Below, in pieces: positions 15,346 through 22,636 of a stretch of DNA of 64,000 nt. Within the stretch, counting starts at the first letter, position 1, and the number at the start of each line of letters is the position of its first letter. A model generated the notes under the pieces. The model was not told the DNA's origin and did not search any database. It saw only the letters and a list, made by a program, of their open reading frames with translations. The stretch is taken from assembly GCA_011364925.1 (NCBI GenBank), contig RDOA01000018.1, positions 1 to 64,000 of the forward strand. Direction: 5' to 3'. Source of the DNA: Promethearchaeota archaeon. GTDB taxonomy: Archaea > Asgardarchaeota > Lokiarchaeia > Sigyniarchaeales > SOKP01. The position numbers and the translations under genes were made by a program.

Positions 15346-15900
15346 ATGCTAAAAGTTCTCTGGGCCATTACTGGTACTGGATATGTCCTACAAGAGTCAA
15401 TAGATTTGATGAAAGAGTTACAAGAAGAGTATAATGTCAATTTAACAGTAATTTTATCAAAAGAAGGAGCAGCAGTTGTAAAGTGGTATAAAAAGTGGTC
15501 AGCTTTAACTGAAGCGGTAGAAAAAGTTAAAGTGGAGAAAACACCAAATATACCTTTCTATGCGGGACCTTTACAACTTGGGAAGTTTGATTTATTCTTA
15601 TGTTGCCCCGTTTCTGCAAACTCTGTAGCCAAAATTGTGCATGGTATTGCGGACACGCTTGTTACTAACTGTATAGCTCAAGCAATTAAGGGGGGGCAAA
15701 TAGTATACATTTTTCCCTCAGATCAAGATACAGAGCCTATTGTGACTTCTCGACCAGATGGATCACCACTTGTGCTAAAAATACGAGATGTGGAACTTGA
15801 GAACATTAAGAAGTTAAAAAACATGGAAGGAATAGAAGTGATATCAGATTTTAGTGAAATTGAAAAACTTATAATTCGAAAGATTGAAGAAAACAAGTGA
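15346..15900 (+). CDS. HFCD-family flavoprotein (archaeoflavoprotein AfpA/DmrX-like)
   Basis: 184 residues of the Dfp/UbiX flavoprotein fold: N-terminal VLWAITGTGYVLQES binding FMN phosphate, the CPVSANSVAKIVHGIADTLVTN segment equivalent to the PASANT motif, and IFPSDQDTEP near the C-terminus. The domain order and length match archaeoflavoprotein A and dihydromethanopterin-reductase-like proteins, which pass electrons from ferredoxin; they are not phosphopantothenoylcysteine decarboxylase itself. AGGAG lies nine bases before the ATG. The gene is divergent from iscS and probably monocistronic. Precise electron acceptor unknown. Confidence 0.8.
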   Translation: MLKVLWAITGTGYVLQESIDLMKELQEEYNVNLTVILSKEGAAVVKWYKKWSALTEAVEKVKVEKTPNIPFYAGPLQLGKFDLFLCCPVSANSVAKIVHGIADTLVTNCIAQAIKGGQIVYIFPSDQDTEPIVTSRPDGSPLVLKIRDVELENIKKLKNMEGIEVISDFSEIEKLIIRKIEENK

Positions 15901-15985
15901 TTCATGGTTTTGGTTCTATAAGTTATATTTCGACGAGAATTAAGAAAAATTAACTTTATAAAGCATTGAGTGAATATTTTCATCA

Positions 15986-16003
15986 TTGTCAAATTTTTGA
16001 CAA
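15986..16003. promoter_or_regulatory. Inverted repeat, candidate operator
   Basis: TTGTCAAA-TT-TTTGACAA has perfect eight-base arms and ends 22 bases before the ATG at 16026. Size and symmetry fit a dimeric winged-helix repressor site just downstream of the promoter. It is not a terminator for the preceding gene because no T run follows. Confidence 0.5.
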
Positions 16004-16025
16004 AATATATAGAGTGTGAAATAAT

Positions 16026-16466
16026 ATGAGTTCAAGTAAAGTAAAATCTTCTAGTACGATTTTAAATCTTCTGGTTATTGCTATTGGAGCGATCTTTCTA
16101 TTTAAAGCAGTAATTAACTTATTGACATCATTTGGAGTAGCTTTTCCTGAATTATTGGGAGAATGGAATGATAAACTTCAAGGTGTTGCTGCCCTTGGGA
16201 GTAGTGGATTAGTTTCTCTCGTCTTAGCCTTCTGGTTTATTATTTCTGGTATAGGAATGTTTAAAGAGGCAGAATGGGCAATGGGTCAAGCATTAGTAGT
16301 TCTCAGTATAACGGTTGTTATGGGAATTGAACCAGTAATCAAATTGATATTGAATCCATCCACGTTTTCCTGGACTGATGTATCGACTATTATAGTTCTT
16401 ATCTCATTTATAGTAGGAATAGTTGGATTTATTTGGTTAATTATTACGAGAAGAAGATACGATTAA
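16026..16466 (+). CDS. Four-helix membrane protein of unknown function
   Basis: 146 residues with four hydrophobic segments (about 11-33, 56-80, 85-103, 113-138), a Ser/Lys-rich N-terminus and a basic C-terminus (RRRYD) expected in the cytosol. A Trp/Asn/Asp-rich loop lies between helices 1 and 2. No known family is recognised. A perfect inverted repeat sits 22 bases upstream of the ATG, implying its own regulation. It precedes the WD40-TIR gene on the same strand by 152 bases, which include a TATA-like TTTAAATTAA, so the two are probably separate transcripts. Confidence 0.7.
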   Translation: MSSSKVKSSSTILNLLVIAIGAIFLFKAVINLLTSFGVAFPELLGEWNDKLQGVAALGSSGLVSLVLAFWFIISGIGMFKEAEWAMGQALVVLSITVVMGIEPVIKLILNPSTFSWTDVSTIIVLISFIVGIVGFIWLIITRRRYD

Positions 16467-16618
16467 CATCTATAGAAAAATTAAAAGAATCAATTTTTTT
16501 TTCTCTTATATTATCAAGTACTAGTTTAAGTCAAGGGTTTCGTCCAAATGTTTAAATTAAATATTGGTTTATTAACAAATAAGTCTACATTTTAGAATCC
16601 AAAATATTATAATAGAAG

Positions 16619-19600
16619 GTGGTTTTCATCCAAACCGAATTGCATGATAAAAATGTTAAAGAGAATTTTGAATATCCTCAACACTTATATCCTAAAAGAA
16701 AAGGGTTAGCAAAAGCTTTTCATATGGCTCAGAGTTTTGGACACAGCAGAGATGTAACTGCTGTCGCTTTGTCTCATAAAGGTGATTATATCGTAAGCGG
16801 TTCAAAAGATAATACACTAAAAATCTGGGATTTTCCAGCTGGAAACCTGTTAAGAACAATAGAGGCACACGATCACTCAATTTTAGCGGTAGCGATATCA
16901 GTAGATGATAATTATATCTATAGTTCTTCCTCAGATAGTATAATAAAAGTATGGGGCTTGAAGAGAGGAAATTTTATAAGTGAATTAAAGGAACATACAG
17001 ATTCAGTAACATCTTTAGCTACTACACCTGATGGTAAAAACCTCGTAAGTGGTTCTAAAGATCAAACTGTTATAGTTTGGAATATTTTAAACGCAAAACT
17101 TATCCATAAATTTGAACATAAAAGCGCCGTATTGTCAATCGCAATTTCTAAAAATAACGAAACTTTGGTTTGTGGAACTGAAGATGGTATTATTAGGGTA
17201 TGGAATTTAAAGAACGGCAAGTTTGTTCGTACAATTAAAGGACATAGTGGAGCTATCAATTCAATAACCATTTCTCCCGATGGGGAATACATTATAAGCG
17301 GATCAGATGACGAAACTGTAAGAATATGGAATCTTTCAAAAGGACGCCCTTTATATGTCCTTAAAAGCCATAAAGCAGTAGTTCGAGCTGTAGCTATTTC
17401 TCTTGATGGAAATTTGATTGTGAGTGGCTCTGATGATAAAACGATAAATATATGGGATGTGTCAACAGGAGAACTCATAAGAACACTAAAAGAGTATACA
17501 GGTAAGGTCTTATCGATTACATTTTCTCCTAATGGGAAGTACATCATAACAGGTTCCGCTGATAATAACATCATGGTATGGGAGTTAATGAAAGGTAAAC
17601 TTGAATCGACAATAAGTGCACATAATAAAGGGATCAACTGTGTAGCAGTTTCTCCAAACGGCCTCTACATTGCATCTGGATCAGATGACAATACAATTAA
17701 AATTTGGGACATTAAGACTCTAAGTCTATTAAGAACGTTAACAGACCATGGAAAATCGGTTACTTCAGTTGAATTTTCGCCTGACGGGAACTTTCTTGTC
17801 AGTGGTTCTAGTGATAAAAAAATAATTATATGGGATGTACGGAAAAGTATTCCATACAGTATATTAAAGAACATCGGAAGCGTGCCAAATTCAGCTATGT
17901 TTACTCCAGAAAGCAATCAAGTAATCATGGGCTTAGACAATAATTATGTAAAAATCTGGGATATTCAAAGTAAGAGTCTAATATGGGAAGAAAAAGCTCA
18001 TAAGGGTCCTGTTACCTCAATAAAGTTCACCCCGAATGGGAGATATTTCGTAACTGGATCAGAAGACAAACACGTTTTGATATGGGACTTTTCTTCGAAA
18101 GAAGTAATCAAGGATCTCGATGGTCATAAGGGAAAAGTGTTGTCGATTGGAATTTCTCCAAATGGAGCAAATATTTGTAGTAGTTCTGACGATAAAACAG
18201 TAAAAGTATGGGACTTTTACACAGGGAACTTGGTTTCTACCATTGATAATCATGCTGATACTGTTTCAAGCGTAAGCTATTCTCCCATAGGGAATTGCTT
18301 TATAAGTACGTCAAAGGATAAAACAGTAAAAGTGTGGGATAATAGAAACGAACTAATTCAAACTTTCGAAGGTCATGGGGAAGATGTCTCTTGTGTAGCA
18401 ATTACGCCGGATGGAAAACTTGCGATAACAGGATCCCTTGATGGGTATTTAAAGGTTTGGGCCCTCACTTTTGGAGGTCTTTTTAAAAATATCAAGGGTC
18501 ATTCGCAAAATGTGAATTCGGTTGCAGTTTCAACAAGCGGTAAATTAGCGGTAAGCGGATTATCCAATAGATCCCTAATTGTATGGGATCTTTCAACCGG
18601 TAAATTGATCAAGACACTGAAAGGTCATACAGATATCATTAGTTCAGTAGCGTTTTCTCCTGGGGGTAAATTTGTTGCTAGTGCGTCTTATGACAAAACC
18701 TGTAAAATATGGGAGATCAATAGCGGTGAAACCTTATGGACTTTAAGCGGTCATGATGACGCAGTTACTTCCGTCTCTGCATCTAATGATACAAAATATA
18801 TTGTGAGTGGTTCAAGAGACAAAACAATTATTATTTGGGAGCCAAGTAGGGGAAAATTATTTAAAAGACTAAAAGGAGCTAAGAGTGCTGTTACATCAGT
18901 TGATTTTTCTCCTAATGACGAACTTATAGTGAATGGTTTAGAAGATAGTACTGTAAATATTTGGAATGTAAAAAAAGGAAAACTAATTCATACCCTAGAA
19001 GGTCATAAAGAGGTTGTTAATTCAGTTGCTTTTTCTCCCGATGGAGAATATGTTGCGAGTGGTTCTAAAGATCAGACGGTGAAGGTTTGGAAAGTTAATA
19101 CTGGTGAATTAGATTATACATTTGAAAAGATTAATAGCCCCGTTACTTCTGTATCATTTTCTTCTGATGGATTGTACGTTGCTTGTGGTACCGAAAATAA
19201 CTTTATACGAATTTGGGATTTTATTGAAAAATATCAAACTTCGTATTATTATTTATCGAAGGTTAACTCTGCAAAGTTCATACCCAACACAAACCAAATA
19301 ATTGCAGGGTACGATTCGGGAGATGTTTTAATATGGGATTTGTTAATGGAAGAACAAGAAGAACTTTTAAAAGAATTAAGAAGCAAATTAAAGAATGTAG
19401 AGGATTTAATCGTTCAAAATAATTATTCAGAAGCGATTGAACAATTAAACTTTATTTTGGAGACAGCGGATGTTTTTAACTTTGAGGATCTTAAAGCAAT
19501 AGCATTTGAGAAACTTAAAAATTTAAGGGATCCAAAAGAAACTCTAGAAGTTGTGAAAAAGATATTAGAGTTTGAGTATAATAATCAAAGAAACATAACT

Positions 19601-20305
19601 AAAGCTGAAATGGTTAATCAACTTAAGATTGAAATTTCAGAGACAGAATATTATGAAGATTTATTAAAAAATCCCTTAGATTATGAACCTTCTGAAAGAG
19701 CTCATTTAGAGAATCTAGGAACGAAAATTTTGCAAGAACTTCTTAATCCTACATTATATGCTTTAATAATGGAAAAAGGATATGATTTAATCACAGCAAA
19801 AAAGATTGGGAAGTTTCTGCAGGATCAAGGATTTATTAGAGATTTTAGAAATTTTCCGCTTGATGAAGAAAAATTCATGACTCCAAGAGAGAAATTAGAA
19901 AATTTAGTTGTATTTGTAAGTTATGCAACAGTTGACGCAGATACGTTTAAGATTGAAGAATTAGCGAAAAGGTTAAAGTCATATGAAGAAATAAAAGAGG
20001 TATTGTATTGGCAAGAACATATGACTGATAATATCATTAAATTCATGAGCGACAACCTTGGAAAATGCAATGTGGTGCTTCTATTTTGCTCTGAGACTGC
20101 TTTAGATTCTAAACCCGTTGAGGAGGAGTGGACAGCTGCTGATATGATGGGTAAACCCATTGTTCCTGTGTTTTTAAGCCCCGATCATATTCCCCCGCTT
20201 TTAAAATCAAGATTAGGGTATGAATTTGATTTAGTGGATTTCGAGAAGAATGTAATGCATATTCATAACTTAATATTGAAGAAGTGTGGATCAATTGATA
20301 ATTAG
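16619..20305 (+). CDS. WD40-repeat protein with C-terminal TIR domain
   Basis: 1228 residues. Twenty-one WD40 repeats (pattern VxSVxxSPDGxxxxSGSxDxTIxIWD, first at about 47, last near 910) are enough for three seven-bladed propellers. A charged helical linker with a TPR-like segment (YSEAIEQLNFILETAD) occupies about 915-1085. The TIR domain at about 1096-1225 starts VVFVSYATVDADTF and has the helix after strand D reading SETALDSKPVEEEW, placing glutamates 1168-1170 where NAD+-cleaving TIRs hold the catalytic Glu. No membrane segment. Start GTG 16619 follows AGAAG; the next Met (residue 36) would still keep all repeats. TIR enzymes cleave NAD+ or make ADP-ribose-type signals, often triggered by a sensor part. 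The NUDIX gene starts 101 bases downstream on the same strand. Role in defence or signalling is inferred. Confidence 0.92.
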   Translation: MVFIQTELHDKNVKENFEYPQHLYPKRKGLAKAFHMAQSFGHSRDVTAVALSHKGDYIVSGSKDNTLKIWDFPAGNLLRTIEAHDHSILAVAISVDDNYIYSSSSDSIIKVWGLKRGNFISELKEHTDSVTSLATTPDGKNLVSGSKDQTVIVWNILNAKLIHKFEHKSAVLSIAISKNNETLVCGTEDGIIRVWNLKNGKFVRTIKGHSGAINSITISPDGEYIISGSDDETVRIWNLSKGRPLYVLKSHKAVVRAVAISLDGNLIVSGSDDKTINIWDVSTGELIRTLKEYTGKVLSITFSPNGKYIITGSADNNIMVWELMKGKLESTISAHNKGINCVAVSPNGLYIASGSDDNTIKIWDIKTLSLLRTLTDHGKSVTSVEFSPDGNFLVSGSSDKKIIIWDVRKSIPYSILKNIGSVPNSAMFTPESNQVIMGLDNNYVKIWDIQSKSLIWEEKAHKGPVTSIKFTPNGRYFVTGSEDKHVLIWDFSSKEVIKDLDGHKGKVLSIGISPNGANICSSSDDKTVKVWDFYTGNLVSTIDNHADTVSSVSYSPIGNCFISTSKDKTVKVWDNRNELIQTFEGHGEDVSCVAITPDGKLAITGSLDGYLKVWALTFGGLFKNIKGHSQNVNSVAVSTSGKLAVSGLSNRSLIVWDLSTGKLIKTLKGHTDIISSVAFSPGGKFVASASYDKTCKIWEINSGETLWTLSGHDDAVTSVSASNDTKYIVSGSRDKTIIIWEPSRGKLFKRLKGAKSAVTSVDFSPNDELIVNGLEDSTVNIWNVKKGKLIHTLEGHKEVVNSVAFSPDGEYVASGSKDQTVKVWKVNTGELDYTFEKINSPVTSVSFSSDGLYVACGTENNFIRIWDFIEKYQTSYYYLSKVNSAKFIPNTNQIIAGYDSGDVLIWDLLMEEQEELLKELRSKLKNVEDLIVQNNYSEAIEQLNFILETADVFNFEDLKAIAFEKLKNLRDPKETLEVVKKILEFEYNNQRNITKAEMVNQLKIEISETEYYEDLLKNPLDYEPSERAHLENLGTKILQELLNPTLYALIMEKGYDLITAKKIGKFLQDQGFIRDFRNFPLDEEKFMTPREKLENLVVFVSYATVDADTFKIEELAKRLKSYEEIKEVLYWQEHMTDNIIKFMSDNLGKCNVVLLFCSETALDSKPVEEEWTAADMMGKPIVPVFLSPDHIPPLLKSRLGYEFDLVDFEKNVMHIHNLILKKCGSIDN

Positions 20306-20406
20306 GGTTGATGCTTTCAAGAAAAAATATAATCTTTTTTAACAAAGAAGTTTTAATATTTATTTAACAGATTTTTACAATTTGAATTAAAAGAGCGGAA
20401 TCAAAA

Positions 20407-22137
20407 ATGGAAGAAAGTTTACGATTCATATACGAGAAGGAGTATTGGTACATTAGCGCTTTCATAAACACAAATGAGTTTATTGGTGAAACAAAAGCGG
20501 AAGAAATCGAAGCGTTACTGTTGAACAGGTTAAAAAATCTTACTGAAAATGATTTAATCAAAGCCTATAACTTTTTAGATAAATACCCAAACGCTGAAGA
20601 GAAGAAGAGAACTTTAGCGAATATGGTAAAATCAATAGATATAGAATGTGATTGGGAACCCTTTTTTCAGAATTTTCCCTACACAGACGAAAAAAATCCT
20701 TATACTGAAGATAACAAGAATTTAACTTATAATACCTTGGGTTATTTTAAATTGGAAGTAGAATATTATAAAAACGAACCTTTCCATAAGGAAACTATAA
20801 CGCCCGATATATTACAGCAAATACCTTTTATTTCCATTGACATCCTCAAGGAATTTAATAAAAAAAAAGAAAACCAATACCTTATACTTGATCTTGAGAG
20901 TCCAATATATATATTTGTTATATCTAAGAAAATAAAGCCGATAGAAGTTCAATGGACTGATGAAAACATACAAAAATATAGAAAAAGCATTGGAACATGG
21001 ACACAATTATATTCGGGTCAATGGACGGATTACTCAGATGATCTTTTTAAAAGGAGAATTAAAGATAACCTAACTAATCGGTTATCAGAATTACAATACA
21101 TTGGAAGAAATTCTGGATTTATTTACATGGTTCCACAGAATTTCGAAACTGAATTCGATTATATAAATCAAGTAATATTAGATCCAACACCTAAGATAAG
21201 GGCCGTTCTTTTTGCTCTCATGTCAATTAACAATTCTCTTGACATTTTGTTTATGAAGAGGTACTCGGATGTCTTTATGGATATAAAAAAGATTGAAGAA
21301 AAAACGAATAATCTTAGATTTTTAAGAGGAATGATCCAAACTAAAATGAGCCTTATTTACAGTGAATTAGATTGGAATCCGAGAGAACATTACATTCGGA
21401 TTCTAACACATCTATTGAAGATCTTTCGCATAGAGGTAATTATTGACCGAGTAAACGACAAGTTTAAAACGCTTTACGATACATTACTGGAATTATATAC
21501 TAAAAGAAACGAAGAAAATCAAAAGAGTACTAAGAAAGCAGTTAACCTCTTGAGCGGTATATTTGGCGCTGGATTCGTAATTGATTTTGTTAATGCTCTT
21601 AGACTTGCAGCTGGAGTTGGAGATGAAGAAATTACCATCAGGATTTTATATATTACAATCTCTATAATTTTAGGAGCAAGCTTTTTCGCTTTATTTATTT
21701 ACTTTATTCTTGGGAGATTCAAGAGTAGAAAATTAAATTTTGGTCATACAGTTGATGCGGTTATCCAAGATGACAATAAAAATATAATTTTAATTAAAAG
21801 AAGATATGCTCCTTATAAAGGTAAATACGCCCTTCCTGGTGGATTTATTAAATATGACGAGGATCCAGAACAAGCAGTCATTCGAGAAGTTCGCGAAGAA
21901 ACGAATCTTGCAGTAAAAATCATCAGCAAGATTGGGACATACGATCAAAAAGGAAGAGATCCAAGGGGAAAGATCGTTTCTACTGCGTTTAAGTGTCGTC
22001 CAGTTAAAGACTTCTCAATGGCAATGGAAGGAGACGACGCTTCACGAGTAGAGGTTGTTCCTATTGACAAACTGAAAAACCTTGAGTTTGCGTTCGATCA
22101 CAACCAAATTTTAAAAGATGCAGGAATTTTAAAATAA
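20407..22137 (+). CDS. Membrane protein with C-terminal NUDIX domain, CorA-like layout
   Basis: 576 residues. Residues 1-375 are a soluble alpha/beta then long-helix region. Two membrane segments follow (about 377-400 and 409-437) with a short acidic loop, a layout like CorA-type channels although no GMN motif is seen. Residues 443-576 are a complete NUDIX hydrolase domain: LPGGFIKYDEDPEQAV then REVREETNL gives Gx5Ex7REUxEE with Asn for the last Gly. Such domains hydrolyse or bind nucleoside diphosphate compounds such as ADP-ribose. The domain is closest in style to ADP-ribose pyrophosphatase/NrtR-type NUDIX. Lying next to a TIR gene, it could destroy or sense the TIR product and change membrane permeability (inference). 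Start ATG 20407. Confidence 0.88.
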   Translation: MEESLRFIYEKEYWYISAFINTNEFIGETKAEEIEALLLNRLKNLTENDLIKAYNFLDKYPNAEEKKRTLANMVKSIDIECDWEPFFQNFPYTDEKNPYTEDNKNLTYNTLGYFKLEVEYYKNEPFHKETITPDILQQIPFISIDILKEFNKKKENQYLILDLESPIYIFVISKKIKPIEVQWTDENIQKYRKSIGTWTQLYSGQWTDYSDDLFKRRIKDNLTNRLSELQYIGRNSGFIYMVPQNFETEFDYINQVILDPTPKIRAVLFALMSINNSLDILFMKRYSDVFMDIKKIEEKTNNLRFLRGMIQTKMSLIYSELDWNPREHYIRILTHLLKIFRIEVIIDRVNDKFKTLYDTLLELYTKRNEENQKSTKKAVNLLSGIFGAGFVIDFVNALRLAAGVGDEEITIRILYITISIILGASFFALFIYFILGRFKSRKLNFGHTVDAVIQDDNKNIILIKRRYAPYKGKYALPGGFIKYDEDPEQAVIREVREETNLAVKIISKIGTYDQKGRDPRGKIVSTAFKCRPVKDFSMAMEGDDASRVEVVPIDKLKNLEFAFDHNQILKDAGILK

Positions 22138-22195
22138 AACTTATTTTTTCTTTTTTTCATTAAAAATTGATATTGAAGCTATCGAAGTTTAAGTC

Positions 22196-22636
22196 CTATG
22201 CTTCGTATTGAATAGGCTCAATAGCCCCTTCAGGACAAGATAATTCGCATTTAAGACATCCTTGACATTTGGAAATTTCACTATACTTGTATCTAATTCC
22301 AAGTTCTTTTCCCTTAACTCCTGATACATCATCTTTATAAAATAGATTTTGTGGACAAAATTTTCCGTTTTCATCTAAACATTTTTCACACAAATTGCAT
22401 TTTTCATGATCAATCTTTATACTAACCACTTGATTGGCACGTGTGATAGAAGTTACCTGAACTGCGTTTCTTGGACACACCATAACACAACTAAGGCAAG
22501 CTTTACATTTTGCGTAATCTACTTTTCGAACCCCATGCTCAAAGTAGATTGCATTAGCTTTACATGCGCGTAAGCATCGCTCACACCTTAAACATTGCTC
22601 CTGATCTATCTGAACTGGGATGAAAGTTTCTTTGAT
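22196..22636 (-). CDS. Polyferredoxin with four Cys cluster motifs, apparent ATC start
   Basis: Electron-transfer protein. The frame holds four cluster motifs in order: CLRCERCLRAC, CKACLSCVMVCP, CNLCEKCLDENGKFCP and CQGCLKCELSCPEGA, the third with a longer final spacing. The first ATG in frame (22481-22483) falls inside the second motif and cannot be the start. The frame is open up to a TAA at 22643-22645, and between them there is no ATG, GTG or TTG. ATC 22634-22636 lies eight bases after GAAGGT (22645-22650) and gives (M)KETFIPVQIDQEQC, a normal ferredoxin N-terminus. So initiation at AUC is proposed; a sequence error is the alternative. Partner oxidoreductase unknown; convergent with the NUDIX gene. 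Confidence 0.85.
   Translation of the reverse strand: MKETFIPVQIDQEQCLRCERCLRACKANAIYFEHGVRKVDYAKCKACLSCVMVCPRNAVQVTSITRANQVVSIKIDHEKCNLCEKCLDENGKFCPQNLFYKDDVSGVKGKELGIRYKYSEISKCQGCLKCELSCPEGAIEPIQYEA

Follow-up and report, generated by a model that had tools for sequence, protein, structure and literature searches.

The window analysed here is a stretch of 64,000 nucleotides of contig RDOA01000018.1, from a Promethearchaeota archaeon of the Lokiarchaeia (assembly GCA_011364925.1). It carries a cassette in which the gene of a WD40-TIR protein is followed by that of a membrane protein bearing a NUDIX domain. Comparison with related genomes showed that close relatives of this NUDIX gene lie beside TIR genes at nearly all of their loci, whereas its more distant paralogue does so at none. 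A product or signal derived from nicotinamide adenine dinucleotide (NAD+) is the natural common currency of the two proteins, since the TIR link is conserved and the NUDIX domain is, judging by its motifs, of the ADP-ribose-binding type. We give a probability of roughly 0.5 to the reading that this is a Thoeris-like NAD-signalling cassette of Lokiarchaeia, in which TIR sensors would make an ADP-ribose-type signal and a NUDIX-gated membrane effector would respond.

The initial annotation had described a same-strand pair of genes 101 bases apart, and both open reading frames were found exactly there. The linkage of the pair held; its reduction to two genes did not, as a third gene belongs to the same cassette. 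The features are as follows.

15901..22195, no strand: cassette insertion of three genes, between a flavoprotein gene (ending at 15900) and a ferredoxin-like gene (3' end at 22196)
16026..16466, + strand: cassette gene 1, small membrane protein of 146 amino acids (hydropathy)
16619..20305, + strand: cassette gene 2, WD40(21)-helical linker-TIR protein of 1228 amino acids
16736..19393, + strand: 21 WD40 repeats (about residues 40-925), putative sensor or scaffold part
19904..20284, + strand: TIR domain, residues 1096-1222 (Pfam TIR_2)
20126-20128, + strand: putative catalytic glutamate, about residue 1170, within ..VEEE-W.. (alignment)
20407..22137, + strand: cassette gene 3, membrane NUDIX protein (clade A) of 576 amino acids
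20407..21534, + strand: N-terminal alpha/beta domain and long helical stalk, residues 1-376 (AlphaFold)
21535..21723, + strand: two transmembrane helices, about residues 377-404 and 408-439 (hydropathy)
21742..22134, + strand: NUDIX domain, NrtR/NadM-like, residues 446-576 (Pfam, fold)
21841..21909, + strand: NUDIX box GFIKYDEDPEQAVIREVREETNL, catalytic residues intact
21955..21969, + strand: RDPRG motif, residues 517-521
22090-22101, + strand: AFDH motif, residues 562-565

Linkage of the NUDIX membrane protein to TIR genes

Comparison of 117 relatives over the full NUDIX membrane protein distinguished a clade A, which shares 64-80% identity with the window protein, from a large and more distant paralogue, group B, at about 40-52% identity. 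The first 60 neighbourhoods fetched and a few later ones were examined, several of them cut short by contig ends, and TIR genes were counted with Pfam TIR_2 and a purpose-built profile, which divergent TIRs may escape. Adjacency in related genomes had been named beforehand as the point on which the proposed pairing hinged. A TIR gene lay within 1.1 kb at 12 of the 13 clade-A loci and, when a distant copy in genome G068 is added (genomes and loci bear our own G and L numbers), at 13/14 TIR-linked-type loci of Lokiarchaeia, whereas none was nearby at 37 group-B loci; the B copy of G003, which adjoins its own A copy, was excluded from this count. The corresponding Fisher value (p 3e-11) is descriptive, as the split between A and B was drawn after identities and neighbours had been seen, and the counts overstate independence because the genomes are related. 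The link to TIR proteins stood, while exclusivity to WD40-TIR did not: the NUDIX protein goes with TIR proteins in general.

Mobile TIR genes could have landed beside the NUDIX gene by chance, without any functional link. The variable gene order and the clade-A copy that has no TIR neighbour fit such an origin, but chance adjacency stays below 1% per locus (about 0.9%, with 2-8 TIR_2 matches per genome of 2.3-3.9 Mb), so that about 0.13 of the 14 loci would be expected against the 13 observed, and the paralogue has none. WD40-TIR and clade-A NUDIX genes also occur together in G010 and G015, where they were not found adjacent. Chance is disfavoured on these grounds, and we consider it very improbable. 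Co-occurrence of WD40-TIR and the clade-A NUDIX protein at genome level was seen in 10/13 versus 1/104 genomes, G010 and G015 included, and a tree of 52 proteins needed three changes of the TIR-neighbour label, compared with about 12 in shuffles.

The TIR gene was upstream and in tandem in the window, G008, G021, G002 and G003, convergent in G019, G010, G015 and G023, and divergent in G064, while the NUDIX gene was flanked by two TIR genes in G020, G054 and G068. Hitch-hiking is disfavoured because there are at least six TIR/NUDIX arrangements overall and because the paralogue serves as a control within the same genomes. The varying order and strand ruled out a fixed two-gene operon, and the absence of TIR genes at the paralogue ruled out a general pairing of NUDIX-protein homologues with TIR. 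The Lokiarchaeia loci show the layout of Thoeris, a single effector gene beside one TIR gene or more.

The TIR partners were of several architectures. Besides WD40(21)-TIR they included small TIR proteins, a TIR with a zinc-ribbon-like part, a protein of 543 residues that joins TIR to a single propeller, and one of 1424 residues that joins it to a beta-helix. The 1424-residue protein (L074:10957-15231) has right-handed beta-helix repeats and is encoded divergently from a clade-A NUDIX gene. The linkage is inferred in G015, whose NUDIX gene is broken across two contigs: one ends with residues 1-485, the other begins with residues 445-575, and the TIR adjoins this second piece. Apparently degraded TIR copies lie beside the clade-A NUDIX genes of G010 and G064 (L070:10917-11330 and L072:5097-6473), the former being a 104-residue open frame inside a longer matching stretch; they suggest turnover of TIR partners. 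In G068 (L121:1-5460), a divergent NUDIX membrane protein is encoded between two TIR genes with a SIR2-TPR gene alongside, possibly an NAD-centred cluster.

Domains of the WD40-TIR and NUDIX proteins

The 21 WD40 repeats previously claimed were recovered, 20 by pattern and one that the pattern skipped at an 84-residue gap. Repeat ends were spaced at a period of 40-42 residues and Pfam WD40 matched 19 stretches (E 1e-210); such a number of repeats would leave room for three seven-bladed propellers. The C-terminal TIR domain, described earlier as having glutamates at the catalytic position, matched TIR_2 above the curated cut-off (E 3e-13, 51.9 bits), and the alpha-C catalytic glutamate was present here and kept in 18/18 aligned TIR domains, neighbouring or orthologous. 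Since the TIR domain alone gave no match to PDB sequences at E 0.1, its identity rests on Pfam and the alignment. A TIR fold with the helix C glutamate is what characterizes TIR NADases; the window TIR is probably an NAD-cutting enzyme, NAD+ cleavage being expected from the family given the conserved glutamate.

The annotation of a full NUDIX domain agreed with Pfam (E 2e-20, residues 448-570 of the window protein). The NUDIX box GX5EX7REUXEE is intact, with N replacing G in the last EEXGU position; most group-B proteins, like clade A, also keep the catalytic residues. RDPRG and AFDH together form a signature common to NrtR and NadM-type NUDIX domains, aligned with PDB 3i9x, 2fml, 2yyh and 3gz8, and both motifs were nearly invariant among 54 homologues. 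The best curated relatives were NadM-Nudix and the ADP-ribose-responsive repressor NrtR, and NrtR solved with ADP-ribose (3gz8) was among the top structural matches. Both sequence and fold therefore place the domain in the NrtR/NadM-like type, in keeping with the ADP-ribose-related function first proposed for it.

Three homologues of the Sigynarchaeota branch (L107, L109 and L110) have lost the NUDIX-box acids and retained RDPRG and AFDH, as putative natural binding-only variants; binding without hydrolysis therefore appears to be tolerated. NrtR has likewise lost catalysis (PMC6800001). These variants bear on the main rival explanation, by which the role of the NUDIX membrane protein is protection or recycling: the ADP-ribose that the TIR NADase makes would be hydrolysed to AMP and ribose-5-phosphate, sparing the cell harm or switching the signal off, and the membrane anchor would have some other purpose. 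Domains of the NadM-Nudix type act as ADP-ribose pyrophosphatases, the NUDIX box is complete in all clade-A copies that cover it, and the head-to-head position of the paralogue with nadA, described below, fits NAD recycling. Clearance, however, would need neither the membrane helices nor an N-terminal domain so large and conserved; most of these genomes already have free-standing NUDIX domains (42-56% identical), and the homologues without catalytic acids keep the ligand motif. We regard clearance as unlikely, although it is the strongest of the alternatives.

The two-helix membrane part was supported by hydropathy and by the AlphaFold model, which placed helices at 342-401 and 409-443 (mean pLDDT, the predicted local distance difference test, of 88.9 over residues 1-444), while its description as CorA-like was weakly supported. 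The top fold matches of the N-terminal and membrane part were CorA structures, with a TM-score of about 0.2. Residues 1-444 matched no Pfam family, the CorA domain family included, and a PDB profile search with the N-terminal domain gave matches at chance level only. The GMN motif was absent from the whole sequence, including the end of the first transmembrane helix (the region reads FGAGFVIDFVNAL), and was found at this place in none of 52 homologues. Membership of CorA was rejected on the missing family match and the missing motif; the topology remains as a lead, and kinship with CorA is suggestive only. The overall topology is alike, with an alpha/beta domain, a long stalk helix running into the first transmembrane helix and the second near the C-terminus, whereas the protein described here has an extra NUDIX domain after the second helix.

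The searches made turned up the NUDIX membrane family solely in Asgard archaea. At five loci of NUDIX-less homologues in other Asgards, there was no TIR profile match and no evident SIR2 gene; an adjacent SIR2 protein was found only at the related G074 and G077 loci. There, the homologue lies 15 bp from the gene of a SIR2_2 protein (L172:1684-5853 and L173:1-2441) which is a ThsA-like SIR2 match in PADLOC.

Cassette site and link to NAD metabolism

The cassette is a precise three-gene insertion, patchy within the genus. The flavoprotein and ferredoxin-like genes abut, a few tens of bases apart, in at least 10 genomes of the same genus, whereas in the window and G008 they are separated by exactly three genes, those of the small membrane protein, the WD40-TIR protein and the NUDIX protein. 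The contig of G013 ends after the left half of the cassette, G021 and G002 show the right half or right flank, and the same module was found at other sites in G019, G020 and G054. The 146-residue protein has about four strongly hydrophobic segments and matched no Pfam family; its gene lies directly upstream of WD40-TIR wherever that side is visible, including in G015, where the NUDIX gene is elsewhere.

The NUDIX membrane family is tied to NAD metabolism because the group-B gene lies head-to-head with nadA (quinolinate synthase), at 71-186 bp, in about 14 genomes (for example L082:5089-7807); a hexapeptide-repeat protein gene follows downstream at these loci. This neighbourhood points to a role of the paralogue in NAD homeostasis and suggests a route by which a protein of NAD homeostasis could come to serve in a TIR system. 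At the nadA loci of G037 and G030 (L180:6755-7213 and L181:6517-6942), a free-standing NUDIX domain takes the position that the membrane NUDIX protein has in related genomes. In G009 (L091:10740-12431), the group-B gene is split by an in-frame stop and a possible transposase gene is adjacent.

The nadA locus also bears on a second rival, a circuit of NAD homeostasis rather than immunity, in which the TIR protein would consume NAD+ under regulation and the NUDIX protein would sense ADP-ribose, as a sign of NAD turnover, and adjust transport or NAD synthesis. The position of the paralogue fits this circuit, as do the clade-A genes at or beside nadA in G003, G053, G054 and G064 and the housekeeping surroundings. 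The patchy insertion of the cassette, the exchange of sensors on the TIR side and the SIR2-TPR/TIR clustering of G068 resemble a conflict system instead, and we consider homeostasis less probable still than clearance. An immune role is a possibility with indirect support, which comes from the patchy cassette, the interchangeable sensors and the SIR2-TPR gene beside the G068 cluster.

Proposed signalling and known systems

Signalling from TIR proteins to an effector that binds a nucleotide is a theme common to bacterial, plant and animal immunity. In the Thoeris-like reading, the WD40 propellers would keep the TIR domain in check until they encounter a trigger; the sensor parts of related loci, namely a single propeller, a right-handed beta-helix or a zinc ribbon, may do likewise. 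The released TIR would act on NAD+ to give ADP-ribose or a relative, and the NUDIX domain, on the cytosolic side, would bind this nucleotide and alter the membrane part, as a pore, a channel or by disruption. The intact active site might then slowly hydrolyse the nucleotide and so return the system to its resting state, in the manner of ancient TRPM2 channel-enzymes. A single NUDIX effector in the membrane would serve one or two different TIR sensors. We infer the NADase activity, the ligand, the gating, the trigger and the immune role.

Several observations weigh against this reading. The NUDIX box is intact in every clade-A copy that covers it, which makes a purely enzymatic role possible; the clade-A locus of G053 is the sole one with no TIR gene near; and gene order and strand vary. 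The clade-A evidence comes mostly from one genus and one related genus. The similarity of the modelled membrane part to CorA is not significant (E 0.009 or worse), and the N-terminal and membrane part also occurs without NUDIX in other Asgards, with no TIR or SIR2 neighbours. The cassette is surrounded by housekeeping genes, with no defence island.

Comparison with Thoeris showed likenesses and differences. In Thoeris a single effector is served by one TIR protein or by several, and the TM-macro form (ThsB TIR and ThsA) likewise has TIR enzymes adjoining a membrane protein of two transmembrane helices with an ADP-ribose-recognising domain, the TM-macro effector binding ADP-ribose (PMC11204291). 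The reader of Thoeris is a macro or SLOG domain, whereas the cassette would read with NUDIX, and the cassette has in addition a large N-terminal domain of CorA-like topology and a small multi-transmembrane gene. ThsA is recognized by SIR2-SLOG or TM-macro, and the window effector carries NUDIX instead. A PADLOC scan of the window proteins gave no match to a Thoeris model and none to a ThsB model for the window TIR, while the TIR adjoining the G020 homologue passed the Pfam ThsB_TIR cut-off.

A literature search of partial coverage found no paper that joins Asgard or Lokiarchaeota TIR domains with NUDIX. The main text of a survey of Asgard defence systems mentions neither Thoeris nor NUDIX (PMC11291487), and in the literature on Thoeris and NUDIX neither PMC9503650 nor PMC10250203 describes such a system. 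That related NUDIX membrane proteins also adjoin other TIR enzymes suggests a signalling or defence system, based on NAD-derived compounds, that is as yet undescribed. If this is true, the NUDIX reader would add a new class of sensor for signals derived from NAD, in the closest archaeal relatives of eukaryotes, and a prokaryotic parallel to the ADP-ribose-gated TRPM2 channels. A bolder proposal, which we hold tentatively and at somewhat less than even odds, is a new Asgard class of TIR signalling: a channel-enzyme gated and reset by its own NUDIX, with interchangeable TIR sensors and an ancestry in the paralogue linked to NAD biosynthesis, as the prokaryotic counterpart of TRPM2.

TRPM2 channel-enzymes (NUDT9-H) are likewise membrane proteins whose C-terminal NUDIX domain lies in the cytosol and is akin to ADP-ribose hydrolases. 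The active-site residues of the domain are intact here, as in the choanoflagellate TRPM2 chanzyme; in such chanzymes, an active NUDIX can gate the channel and slowly remove its ADP-ribose ligand (PMC11479946). TRPM2 has the fold of a TRP channel, whereas the protein described here has two transmembrane helices and an unrelated N-terminal domain. NrtR and NadM-Nudix are alike in the sequence and fold of the NUDIX domain, and the paralogue adjoins an NAD biosynthesis gene; the protein here differs from them in being membrane-anchored, without a DNA-binding or adenylyltransferase domain. TEP1 and NWD1 (DUF4062 TIR-like NADases, PMC13174449) also join a TIR-like NADase to WD40 propellers as presumed sensor, while the window protein is without the NACHT/STAND ATPase and has its TIR at the C-terminus.

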